A stretch of DNA of 64,000 nucleotides from NCBI GenBank assembly GCA_014650475.1, contig BMVA01000005.1, forward strand, positions 180,079 to 244,078, in the 5' to 3' direction. Below the pieces are notes generated by a model that made no database searches, was not told the DNA's origin, and was given only the letters and a program-made list of their open reading frames with translations. The position numbers and the translations under genes are program-made. Every line of letters starts with the position of its first letter. The stretch's first letter is position 1. Shown here piece after piece: positions 865-8,327 of this stretch. This DNA is from Streptomyces albogriseolus (GTDB lineage: Bacteria > Actinomycetota > Actinomycetes > Streptomycetales > Streptomycetaceae).

Positions 865-1221
865 ATGGTTCCCGAGATCGGCCAGCAACGGTTCGCCGAG
901 GCGCAGGCGGCAGGCGCCCTCGTCGTCGACGTCCGTAACAGCGGCGAGTACCGGGCCGGACACGTCCCCGGCGCCCGCTCGGCACCGCTTCCCAACCTCC
1001 CCCTGATCCTGAGCGAGCTGCCCAAGGACCGTCCGGTCTACGTGATCTGCCAGAGCGGCGGCCGCAGCGCGCAGGCGACCTCCCTGCTCCGCGACCTGGG
1101 CTACGACGCCCACAGCGTCAGCGGCGGCACCGCCGCCTGGATCGACGCCGGCCGCCCCGCCGCCACCGGCGACGAGCCCGGCGCCCCCACCGCCCCCGCC
1201 ACCTCCGAGGAGACGCGATGA
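865..1221 (+). CDS. Single-domain rhodanese (sulfurtransferase)
   Basis: This 118-aa cytosolic protein is one rhodanese domain. It has the DVRNSGEYRAGHVPGA motif near residues 22-37 and an active-site loop CQSGGRS beginning at Cys62. The Cys would carry a persulfide and pass sulfane sulfur between low-molecular-weight thiols and partner proteins. A short Pro/Ala-rich tail follows the domain. It is the first gene of the first sulfur operon and its stop overlaps the next start (ATGA at 1218-1221), so it is probably translationally coupled to the persulfide dioxygenase. Two CstR-like operators lie just upstream. The domain call is firm; the exact sulfur donor and acceptor are not known. Confidence 0.9.
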   Translation: MVPEIGQQRFAEAQAAGALVVDVRNSGEYRAGHVPGARSAPLPNLPLILSELPKDRPVYVICQSGGRSAQATSLLRDLGYDAHSVSGGTAAWIDAGRPAATGDEPGAPTAPATSEETR

Positions 1222-2627
1222 TCACCGTTCTGCCCGTCGAGACCCCCGGCCTGGGGGACCGCACCTACCTCGCCCACGACGGTTCCGTGGCCCTGGTGGT
1301 CGACCCCCAGCGCGACTACGACCGCGTCACCGCACTGGCCGACGCCGCCGGAGTGCGGATCACCCACGTGTTCGAGACGCACATCCACAACGACTACGTC
1401 ACCGGCGGTCTGGCCCTCGCCCGCGAGGTGGGCGCCCAGTACCTGGTGAACGCCGACGACGAGGTCTCCTACGAGCGGACCCCGGTCCGCGACGACCAGG
1501 TGATCGAGGTCGGCGACACCATGCGGGTGCGGGCGATCCACACGCCCGGCCACACCCACACCCACCTGTCCTACGCGCTGGAGGCGGGCGGCGAGCAGAT
1601 CGCGGTGTTCACCGGCGGCTCCCTGCTGTACGGCACCACCGGGCGGCCGGACCTGCTCGGCCCGGACCACACCGACACCCTGGTGCGGGCCCAGTGGCGC
1701 TCCGCCCACCGGCTGGCCGAGGAACTGCCGGACGAGACGGCCGTCTACCCCACCCACGGGTTCGGCTCGTTCTGCTCCGCGACCCAGGCCTCCGGTCTGT
1801 CCAGCACCATCGGCGAGGAGAAGCGCACCAACACCGCGCTGACCGCCGACGAGGAGGCTTACGTCCAGCAGCTCCTGGCCGGCCTGGACGCCTACCCGGC
1901 CTACTACGCCCACATGGGCCCGGCCAACTCCGGCGGTCCCGGCAAGCCGGACCTGTCCGCGCCGTCCGTGGCGGACCCGGCCGAGCTGCGGCGCAGGATC
2001 GAGGACGGCGAGTGGGTGGTCGACCTGCGCGACCGCACCGCCTTCGCCGCCGGGCACCTCGCCGGCAGCCTCAACTTCGGCCTGGACGGACAGTTCGTCA
2101 CCTACCTGGGCTGGCTGATCCCGTGGGGCACCCCGCTCACCCTGCTCGGCGAGACCGCCGACGACGTGGCCGAGGCCCAGCGCGAACTGGTCCGCATCGG
2201 CATCGACCGCCCGGCCGCCATGGCCACCGGGGGCCCGGACGACTGGGCCGGCGGCGAGCCCCTGGCCTCCTACGAGCGGGCCGGCTTCGGCGACCTGAAG
2301 GCCGCCCTCGGGAGTGACGACCTCGTCGTCCTGGACGTGCGCCGCAACCAGGAGCGCGCCGAGGCGCACATCCCGGGCTCGGTGCACATCCCCGTCCACG
2401 AGGTGCCGGGCCGCCTCGAGGAGATCCCCGCGGGCCGCGTCTGGGTGCACTGCGCCGGCGGCTACCGCGCCGGAGTCGTCGCCGCGCTGCTCCACGCCCG
2501 CGGCCGTGACGTCGTCGCGGTCGACGACAGCTTCGACCACGCCCTCGACCTGGGGCTGTGCCCCATGGCCTCCGACACCCCCGAAACCCCCGACACTCAC
2601 GACAACCGACAGGAGATCAACGCGTGA
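1218..2627 (+). CDS. cstB: CstB-like persulfide dioxygenase-rhodanese fusion (copy 1)
   Basis: The 469-aa protein starts with a metallo-beta-lactamase fold domain (about 1-240) carrying THIHNDYVTGG (His55, His57, Asp59), the iron site of persulfide dioxygenases, and a conserved SFC cysteine after the HGFGS motif. A first rhodanese-like domain (about 255-350) has no catalytic Cys. A second rhodanese (about 355-455) has Cys412 in an HCAGGYRAG loop. This order is that of CstB, which oxidises low-molecular-weight persulfides to thiosulfate. Tyr replaces the last His of HxHxDH, as usual in CstB-type rather than ETHE1-type enzymes. The gene overlaps both neighbours in tight operon fashion and has a paralogue at 5517-6881. 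Confidence 0.88.
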   Translation: MITVLPVETPGLGDRTYLAHDGSVALVVDPQRDYDRVTALADAAGVRITHVFETHIHNDYVTGGLALAREVGAQYLVNADDEVSYERTPVRDDQVIEVGDTMRVRAIHTPGHTHTHLSYALEAGGEQIAVFTGGSLLYGTTGRPDLLGPDHTDTLVRAQWRSAHRLAEELPDETAVYPTHGFGSFCSATQASGLSSTIGEEKRTNTALTADEEAYVQQLLAGLDAYPAYYAHMGPANSGGPGKPDLSAPSVADPAELRRRIEDGEWVVDLRDRTAFAAGHLAGSLNFGLDGQFVTYLGWLIPWGTPLTLLGETADDVAEAQRELVRIGIDRPAAMATGGPDDWAGGEPLASYERAGFGDLKAALGSDDLVVLDVRRNQERAEAHIPGSVHIPVHEVPGRLEEIPAGRVWVHCAGGYRAGVVAALLHARGRDVVAVDDSFDHALDLGLCPMASDTPETPDTHDNRQEINA

Positions 2628-3205
2628 CCACCCCCACCACTCCCCGCAGCCTGACCATCGACGACCTGCGCACCCGGCTCGACTCGGCCAACCCGCCCCG
2701 GCTGCTCGACGTCCGTTCCCCTGCCGAGTTCGAGGGCGCTCACATTCCCGGCTCCTACAACGTCCCACTCGACACCCTGCGCGAACACCGCGAGGAGCTG
2801 ACGAAGCACCTGGACACCGACGTGGTGCTGGTCTGCCGCTCCGGCCAGCGCGCCGGCCAGGCCGAACGCGCCCTCGCCGAGGCCGGGCTCCCCGGTCTTG
2901 CGGTCCTGTCGGGCGGCATGACGGCCTGGGAGAAGTCCGGCGCCCCGACCAACTACGGTCAGGAGCGCTGGGACATGGAGCGCCAGGTCCGTCTGGTCGC
3001 GGGCTCGCTGGTGCTGGTCGGCGCCCTGGGCAGCTTCCTCGTCCCCGGTCTGCAGGCGCTGTCCGCGTTCGTCGGCGGCGGGCTGGCCTTCGCCGCCATC
3101 AGCAACACCTGCGCCATGGGCGTGATGCTGTCGAAGATGCCGTGGAACCGCACCCCGTCCTTCGACCCGCGCAAGGCCGTCGCCCAGCTCGCCGACGGCA
3201 GGTGA
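2624..3205 (+). CDS. Membrane-anchored rhodanese with DUF2892 tail (YgaP-like)
   Basis: I place the start at GTG 2624, which overlaps the preceding stop (GTGA) and has AGGAG 8 bases upstream; earlier in-frame starts would lie inside cstB. The 193-aa product has a rhodanese domain (about 10-110) with Cys71 in a CRSGQRAG loop, followed by a DUF2892 region (about 118-180) with two hydrophobic segments, the second carrying SNTCAMG. This is the architecture of the inner-membrane rhodanese YgaP. It probably handles persulfide at the membrane, next to the exporter encoded immediately downstream. It has no counterpart in the second sulfur module. Confidence 0.85.
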   Translation: MTTPTTPRSLTIDDLRTRLDSANPPRLLDVRSPAEFEGAHIPGSYNVPLDTLREHREELTKHLDTDVVLVCRSGQRAGQAERALAEAGLPGLAVLSGGMTAWEKSGAPTNYGQERWDMERQVRLVAGSLVLVGALGSFLVPGLQALSAFVGGGLAFAAISNTCAMGVMLSKMPWNRTPSFDPRKAVAQLADGR

Positions 3206-3210
3206 CGGTC

Positions 3211-7276: not shown

Positions 7277-8022
7277 GCGCACTGGTCCTGGCCCTGATCG
7301 CGGGGGCCGTGGTCGGCCTGGCACTCGGCGCGCTCGGCGGCGGCGGCAGCGTCCTGGCCGTTCCCGCCCTGATCTACCTGCTCGGCTTCTCCCCCGCCGC
7401 GGCCACCACCGGCAGTCTCGTCATCGTCACCGTGACCTCGCTGACCGCGCTGTACGCCCATGCCCGCGCGGGAAACGTACGGTGGAGAGCCGGCGCGGCG
7501 TTCGCCGCCGCGGGCCTGCTGCCGGCCGCGCTGGCGGGAGCCGCCGCCGGGCACCTGCCCCAGGCCGTCCTCACCCTCGCCTTCGCGGTGGTCGCGGCCG
7601 TCGCCGCACTGAGGATGCTCCGGCCCGCCGATCCGGCCGGCGGGGAGCCCCGATCGGTTCGGCCGGGCAGGGCCGCCGCGGCGGGGGCGGGACTGGGCGC
7701 GCTGACCGGACTGCTGGGCGTGGGCGGCGGTTTCCTCGCCGTGCCGGCCCTGGTCACCGTCCTGGGCTTCGAGATGCGGGCCGCCGTCGGCACCAGTCTG
7801 CTGGTCATCACGGCCAACTCCCTGGCCTCGCTCGCCACCCGCTCGGGGGCCGCGATCTCCCTCGACTGGGCGGTGATCGGCCCCTTCATCGCGGCCGCCG
7901 TCCTGGGCGCGTGGGACGGCAAACGCCTCGCCGCGAAGGTCTCAGGACCCGGCCTGCAGCGCGTCTTCGCGGTGGTCCTGCTGGCCGTGGCCGCCTTCAT
8001 GCTCGCCGACGCGGTGACATGA
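7273..8022 (+). CDS. TauE/SafE-family sulfite/anion exporter (copy 2)
   Basis: This 249-aa membrane protein has two Gly-rich repeats (LGALGGGGSVLAVPALIYLLG and TGLLGVGGGFLAVPALVTVLG), each at the start of a half of about four hydrophobic segments, as in TauE/SafE exporters. The start is GTG 7273 in a GTGA overlap with the rhodanese stop. It is about 37 residues shorter than the homologue at 3211-4071, with a shorter C-terminus. Export of sulfite or another oxidised sulfur anion made by CstB is inferred from the operon. Confidence 0.85.
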   Translation: MSALVLALIAGAVVGLALGALGGGGSVLAVPALIYLLGFSPAAATTGSLVIVTVTSLTALYAHARAGNVRWRAGAAFAAAGLLPAALAGAAAGHLPQAVLTLAFAVVAAVAALRMLRPADPAGGEPRSVRPGRAAAAGAGLGALTGLLGVGGGFLAVPALVTVLGFEMRAAVGTSLLVITANSLASLATRSGAAISLDWAVIGPFIAAAVLGAWDGKRLAAKVSGPGLQRVFAVVLLAVAAFMLADAVT

Positions 8023-8051
8023 GCCGGTGCTCCGGCCGGAGCCGGCGCTCA
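8021..8051. terminator. Bidirectional hairpin between exporter and second cstR
   Basis: The 14-bp palindrome gctccggccggagc (8029-8042), flanked by imperfect GAGCCG/CGGCGCTC arms, fills the gap between two convergent genes. Confidence 0.45.
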
Positions 8052-8327
8052 GGCCAGCGACAGGAACAGCTTCTCCAGGCGGGCGCGCATCACGTCCCGG
8101 TCCCCGTTCACCTGTCCGCCCTCCGCCATGCAGTGCTGCAGCCCCGTCGCGATGATCGCGAAACCGGCCCGGTCCAGCGCCCGGGAGACCGCCGCGAGCT
8201 GCGTGATCACGTCCTCGCAGTCGCGCCCCTCCTCGATCATCCGGATGATCCCCGCGATCTGGCCCTGCGCCCGCCGCAACCGGTTGAGTACGCTCTTCAG
8301 CTCTTCGGCCGCCATGTCCAGTTCCAC
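8049..8327 (-). CDS. cstR: CstR-type persulfide-sensing CsoR-family repressor (copy 2)
   Basis: A 92-aa CsoR-family protein closely similar to the one at 4648-4914, with [20 protein letters not shown], Cys37 and Cys66. The copper-ligand His is again Gly (62), so it is CstR-like rather than a copper sensor. It faces the second sulfur operon tail to tail and has its own perfect-armed operator at 8344-8359, 16 bp before the start codon, which predicts autorepression. Two such repressors serving one set of near-identical operators could cross-regulate. Confidence 0.88.

Follow-up and report, generated by a model that had tools for sequence, protein, structure and literature searches.

In a 64,000-nt stretch of Streptomyces albogriseolus contig BMVA01000005.1 (from the 8.07-Mb draft genome GCA_014650475.1), hereafter the window, positions 865-8327 hold two diverged sulfane-sulfur modules, A and B, with one CsoR-family repressor gene each. 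Domain searches recovered every gene that a preliminary description of this DNA had named, arranged and positioned as it had proposed. Module A, encoded on the plus strand, begins with a rhodanese gene (865-1221; PF00581, 6.6e-18), followed by genes for a CstB-like protein in which a metallo-β-lactamase (MBL) domain precedes two rhodanese domains (CstB-like A, 1218-2627), a YgaP-like rhodanese with a membrane domain (about 2624-3205; PF00581 and PF11127), a TauE/SafE family exporter (3211-4071; PF01925, 3.1e-51), a thioredoxin with Cys30 and Cys33 (4238-4606; PF00085, 3.2e-26), and CsoR-family repressor A (4648-4914; PF02583). Module B comprises CstB-like B (5517-6881; assigned by domains and alignment), a rhodanese (6917-7276; PF00581, 7.3e-18), and a TauE/SafE family exporter (7273-8022; PF01925, 8.3e-47), all on the plus strand, and CsoR-family repressor B on the minus strand (8049-8327; PF02583). 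A minus-strand DUF302 gene, whose product has Cys59 and Cys80, sits between the modules (4933-5328; PF03625, 1.4e-23). The domains also bear out the YgaP-like rhodanese and thioredoxin as parts of the first copy, and DUF302 as flanking the second.

Over their aligned parts, the A and B proteins are 58.6% (MBL-rhodanese), 56.7% (CsoR), 46.7% (rhodanese), and 41.0% (TauE) identical, so the copies had rightly been called clearly diverged. Neighbors within 8 kb were counted at 80 named loci, where several contigs end close by. The 20 Streptomyces A loci have TauE (20), YgaP-like (20), CsoR-family (19), thioredoxin (17), rhodanese (16), and DUF302 (4) neighbors, and the 60 other A-type loci have TauE (48), CsoR-family (45), rhodanese (39), DUF302 (36), thioredoxin (20), and YgaP-like (12) neighbors.

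Repressors and operators

CsoR-family repressors of the CstR type carry two cysteines 29 residues apart and lack a copper-ligand histidine, which copper sensors have at that position. Both repressors of the window are CstR-like, as had been proposed: CsoR A (Cys36, Gly61, Cys65) and CsoR B (Cys37, Cys66) share the C-x28-C pair, with Gly at the position of the copper-binding His. Five other CsoR-family matches were found in the genome; four of these have His at this position (one with an in-frame stop), and the fifth did not show the Cys/His pattern. Because the copper-ligand His is missing, copper regulation of CsoR A and CsoR B is disfavored by their sequences. The cysteine numbering of CsoR B is that reported for ScCsoR of Streptomyces coelicolor, for which persulfide-triggered release from the operator has been described (PMC7533328).

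Operators were sought with the pattern ATACCCN4GGGTAT, allowing at most one mismatch, and 60 simulated first-order Markov windows and a genome-wide search with the reversed pattern served as controls. Seven sites were found in the window, confined to positions 771-8359, and none in the 60 simulated windows; the whole genome has 11 sites, seven of them at this locus, and the reversed pattern gave none. Chance matches are ruled out by these controls, and the shared operator that the preliminary description had proposed is real. Two predicted CstR-type operators lie upstream of module A (771-786, with one mismatch, and 818-833, perfect), one lies upstream of the thioredoxin-CsoR A pair (4174-4189), one upstream of DUF302 (5369-5384), two upstream of module B (5431-5446 and 5473-5488), and a perfect one upstream of CsoR B (8344-8359).

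Similar sites recur elsewhere. At least one strict site is present in 30/30 Streptomyces A promoters, where strict sites have a C-rich core, and in 32/34 B promoters (the window is not among the A rows, and some species are present twice). The strict site is also found in 38 of 61 non-Streptomyces A-type promoters, and among the 80 named loci a site lies within 250 nt upstream of the thioredoxin gene in 32 of 38 rows. Of the sites outside the locus, the one on contig C12 precedes a B-type YgaP-like gene, whose product is 57-75% identical to the YgaP-like proteins of B loci and 37-42% identical to those of A loci, while the one on contig C13 precedes the second DUF302 gene of the genome. There are only two DUF302 genes in this genome and an operator precedes both. 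The tandem points to DUF302 as a recurrent neighbor of the CstR regulon and, here, an operator-bearing member. On contig C8, a site (L225, near 4381) precedes a universal-stress-like gene by about 70 bases, as judged by eye, and sulfane sulfur may therefore be linked to the universal stress protein response.

Module B closely resembles a characterized circuit. In S. coelicolor, ScCsoR represses the genes for the persulfide dioxygenase (PDO) ScPDO, TauE, and a rhodanese, as well as its own gene, and sulfane sulfur modifies its Cys37 (Lu et al., 2020; PMC7533328). As described there, the SCO0618-0621 circuit matches module B in its kinds of genes, in its Cys37/Cys66 repressor, and in having two ATACC-N6-GGTAT operators in front of a PDO gene that starts with GTG. 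Operators of this form likewise precede the PDO-type and csoR genes of module B (at 5431, 5473, and 8344). Unlike that circuit, module B has an extra rhodanese gene between the PDO-type and TauE genes and a DUF302 gene upstream, and its YgaP-like partner lies on another contig (C12), so that no intergenic operator region is shared by a rhodanese gene and csoR. The parts of the article available to us mention no A-like module for S. coelicolor.

The published features of ScPDO (SCO0618: 461 residues, two Cys, no Lys, domain limits 16-171 and 362-444; PMC7560446) are nearer to those of CstB-like B (two Cys, 15-171 and 369-443) than to those of CstB-like A (three Cys, 17-180 and 359-439). Compared by amino acid composition, the rows nearest to SCO0618 are B-type (distances 44-48), and six rows of other types that were inspected lie at 103-134, one of these being uninformative. 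Because lengths were not fixed, one A-type row from outside Streptomyces came as near as 54. Streptomyces A-type rows are absent from the 12 nearest. An exact composition match was not found among the fetched loci, the best distances being 44 and 46.

Lineages and distribution of the two modules

The preliminary description had proposed phylogenies of the CstB, TauE, and CstR copies as a check, and two of the three are informative. In a 124-row FastTree tree of the MBL-rhodaneses, the Streptomyces A proteins group with those of Pseudonocardia and other actinobacteria (82 rows, support 97), and the B proteins form a separate Streptomyces clade (33 rows, support 99); long branches in other parts of the tree drew a program warning. 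Both clades are kept in a more careful tree of 41 rows chosen from the 124, including 15 of the 18 outside rows wanted. The TauE tree agrees, and the CsoR tree, with few columns, resolves little. The same kinds of genes standing side by side could be taken as the product of a recent local duplication within Streptomyces. The MBL-rhodanese and TauE trees disfavor this origin, as does the approximately unbiased (AU) test, in which Streptomyces A and B as one clade received a p-AU of 0.0156 (41 rows, with the group named after the first tree had been seen), and we regard it as highly improbable. The most probable source of module A is another actinobacterial lineage, although the direction of transfer is something we infer.

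The doubled set is unusual, as had been suggested. Of 392 Streptomyces genomes, 11 were found to have A-type genes, and 206 have A or B with E<=1e-100. Seven of the 11 A carriers also have B, no B was matched in the other four, and A and B are adjacent in two of the seven genomes with both, the window's genome and G132. The two copies therefore do not always travel as one unit; invariable inheritance together, with identical expression, was the pattern that the preliminary description had held would refute it. B or part of B stands beside A at four of the 20 named Streptomyces A loci, including that of S. griseoincarnatus, which is apparently the same as G132. Flanks to the left of module A found no match in the loci compared.

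NZ_CP054921, a plasmid of 137 kb from Streptomyces sp. NA03103, carries a further pair, in which B is inverted and most of DUF302 is missing. An independent origin of this pair was considered and rejected: the match beside csoA continues to window position 5015, into the end of DUF302, and a rearranged common pair is the simpler explanation. A/B doubling is thus uncommon and can be plasmid-borne. Plasmids of other genera carry related genes; 46 of the 135 plasmid records with a match are from Rhodococcus, and one Rhodococcus plasmid cluster (L231, 5078-8332) encodes a YgaP-like transmembrane protein, DUF302, TauE, a CsoR-family protein, and an MBL-rhodanese with FTGG.

Why both modules are kept bears on the suggestion, made in the preliminary description, of a two-threshold response, in which A and B would differ in the persulfide, affinity, or oxygen level that they are tuned to, and neither could be spared. 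The divergence of the enzymes, the retention of B somewhere in seven of the 11 A carriers, and a thioredoxin gene that in the window belongs only to A are in keeping with such a division of labor, although thioredoxin matches also occur near some B loci elsewhere (L129, L182, L185). Strict operator sites differ too, with one in 28/30 A promoter rows (two or more in 2/30) and two or more in 30/34 B rows, but the window's own A promoter has its second, one-mismatch site. Gene losses in paired lineages point the other way. S. griseoincarnatus (L047) lacks window positions 7096-7760, the end of rhodanese B and the start of TauE B; positions 6112-8616 are absent from S. speibonae (L044), whose scaffold is gapped but has no N at the junction; and G218 (L212) keeps DUF302 beside csoA with no B, suggesting that B was lost. 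On plasmid NZ_CP054921, TauE A is split over two frames, possibly by sequencing error. One TauE, and sometimes one module, therefore appears to be enough, and these apparent losses, together with the four A carriers that show no B, favor partial redundancy; we consider two required thresholds rather unlikely.

The iron site of the MBL-rhodaneses

Both enzymes have the CstB architecture, a Lactamase_B domain and two rhodanese stretches, as in Staphylococcus aureus CstB (3R2U). An AlphaFold2 model of CstB-like A (mean predicted local distance difference test score, pLDDT, 83.3; predicted template modeling score 0.82) matched 3TP9 of A. acidocaldarius with a template modeling score of 0.83, and 3R2U with 0.62 by query and 0.84 by target; residues 182-184 and 230-237 have pLDDT <50, and the active-site loops are of low confidence. 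The active-site Cys of the C-terminal rhodanese domain (Cys412 in A, Cys414 in B) is kept in 115/115 A/B-type rows. Rows with in-frame stops, coverage <60%, or low identity were left out of the alignment and trees, and some species stand under two labels (for example, L047 and L124).

The metal site departs from this pattern. The iron ligands of human ETHE1, His79, His135, and Asp154 (PMC4383860), align with His55, His112, and Gly134 of CstB-like A. The 2-His-1-Asp triad is therefore incomplete in both copies, and Gly replaces Asp in all 115 A/B rows, unlike 3R2U and 3TP9, which have Asp at this position. The motifs of 3R2U are HADF and FSGD, and those of both window enzymes HNDY and FTGG. Eight of eight further Streptomyces rows have Gly, the single classic-type row has Asp, and in an earlier, overlapping set of 120 matches the GG motif was seen in 118, Asp in one, and no motif was found in one. 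His55, His57, Asp59, His112, His180, Cys186, and Cys412 are invariant in the 115 rows; His232 is kept in 113 of them, and the classic row has Phe there. In type III enzymes, the third His of the motif is replaced by Phe or Tyr (PMC6060420). The name CstB-like dioxygenase, used in the preliminary description, holds for architecture and C-terminal Cys, but is chemically uncertain for both copies because Gly stands where solved PDOs have their third iron ligand. No mention of the Asp-to-Gly change was found in the parts consulted of the literature, including PMC6060420, PMC12856154, and PMC4383860, and it may already have been reported. Another Streptomyces MBL-rhodanese type (L134, L135, L138, L139, L140, L143) also has Gly at this position (6/6), with the motif THLHADF and, in the three rows printed, FTGGSLIVG; these genes adjoin a rhodanese match, and no TauE or CsoR match was found in their 16-kb stretches.

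With Gly for the Asp ligand, the MBL domain must be either weakly active or unlike solved PDOs in the way it binds iron. Replacing the ligand Asp of AcPDO by Ala, Glu, or His brings activity down to 0.5-2%, and the Asp-to-His variant has residual activity only and low iron (PMC6060420). Such values, the Gly in every A/B row, and the invariant rhodanese Cys would fit enzymes of this clade that are no longer dioxygenases but sulfurtransferases or hydrolases, with an MBL domain that binds a persulfide or a non-redox metal. However, ScPDO, which appears to be B-type, consumed O2 with glutathione persulfide (1.19 U/mg), and sulfane sulfur rose in cells from which it had been deleted (PMC7533328); His55, His57, Asp59, His112, and His180 are invariant; and 68 of the 80 named loci have TauE within 8 kb. 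We therefore hold loss of dioxygenase function to be a doubtful reading. The ScPDO activity is about 1% of that of Asp-bearing AcPDO (111.5 U/mg, as given in the abstract) and similar to that of AcPDO ligand mutants, a comparison that crosses assays, temperatures, and PDO types and is a pointer, not proof.

It is also conceivable, though again we would not bet on it, that the whole actinobacterial MBL-rhodanese class, probably including ScPDO, works without a carboxylate ligand, histidines (His55, His112, and perhaps His57, His116, or His232) coordinating the iron. Such a site would have converged on the 3-His arrangement of cysteine dioxygenase, and its substrate might be mycothiol persulfide. 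The weakness of the AcPDO Asp-to-His variant speaks against a simple 3-His substitute. If the A/B clade is active, a widespread group of actinobacterial persulfide dioxygenases breaks the 2-His-1-carboxylate rule, and the substrate used for the reported activities may have been a poor one; an inactive clade would mean that the sulfane-sulfur model based on ScPDO needs another mechanism. The Gly-for-Asp site common to both copies is the point most deserving specialist attention, and is directly testable.

Two modules side by side

We think it likely that the locus represents two separately evolved persulfide/polysulfide detoxification modules set side by side, with module B being the Streptomyces circuit known from S. 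coelicolor. The genes, operators, trees, distribution, and apparent losses behind this proposal come from this analysis, and sensing, repression, and O2 use are taken from the literature on the B-type relative. Without sulfane sulfur, the CstR-type repressors would block the promoters at ATACC-N6-GGTAT palindromes, and persulfidation of the Cys pair would free them. Once induced, the rhodaneses, the YgaP-like protein, and the thioredoxin could handle sulfane sulfur, the MBL-rhodanese would oxidize it to sulfite, and TauE would presumably export the sulfite; the thiol used is likewise presumed. Since both modules carry the same operator class, they probably share regulatory targets, and the tandem offers a natural test of the cross-regulation that this would entail between paired CstR circuits.

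Several observations weigh against this proposal. With Gly in place of an iron ligand, the enzymes may have lost the dioxygenase step. That module B is of the ScPDO type we infer from a published description, and the regulation of module A and its operator binding are predictions from sequence. The site on contig C6 has no obvious sulfur gene nearby, the remaining 23 of the 61 non-Streptomyces A-type promoters lack a strict site, and DUF302 has a strict site within 250 nt upstream in just 15 of 42 rows at the 80 named loci. The B-type YgaP-like gene, which adjoins csoB in 18 of 22 B loci, is here on another contig with its own operator.

The locus is mostly of a known kind. The S. aureus CstR/CstB system combines a CsoR-family sensor with TauE; the set in the window differs from it in being doubled and in having DUF302, a YgaP-like protein, and thioredoxin. 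The precedent had been drawn from Staphylococcus, and this stands for the architecture, but it is not limited to that genus, module B being of a kind characterized in S. coelicolor (PMC7533328). The yrkD cluster of B. licheniformis, as described in PMC9918477, likewise has a CstR-like repressor, two PDO-type genes, TauE, and a thioredoxin homologue; unlike the locus here, it has one CstR-like repressor, includes SQR and NreBC, and is not two operons. An Arthrobacter plasmid SUL module shares a CsoR-family regulator, a putative dioxygenase, two rhodaneses, TauE, and DUF302 with the window, but is a single set as described there, by annotation only (PMC6305408).

The window also holds other genes of note. 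One for a universal stress protein that has two Usp domains (9538-10440) stands beside a gene for a P-type ATPase with a C-terminal hemerythrin domain (10472-12847), which we take to resemble P1B-5 metal ATPases. Two flavodoxin-domain proteins are encoded nearby on opposite strands (12856-13353 and 14681-15193), and at 35770-36970 a gene for the PspA-associated protein PspAA is followed by one for an M48 peptidase.

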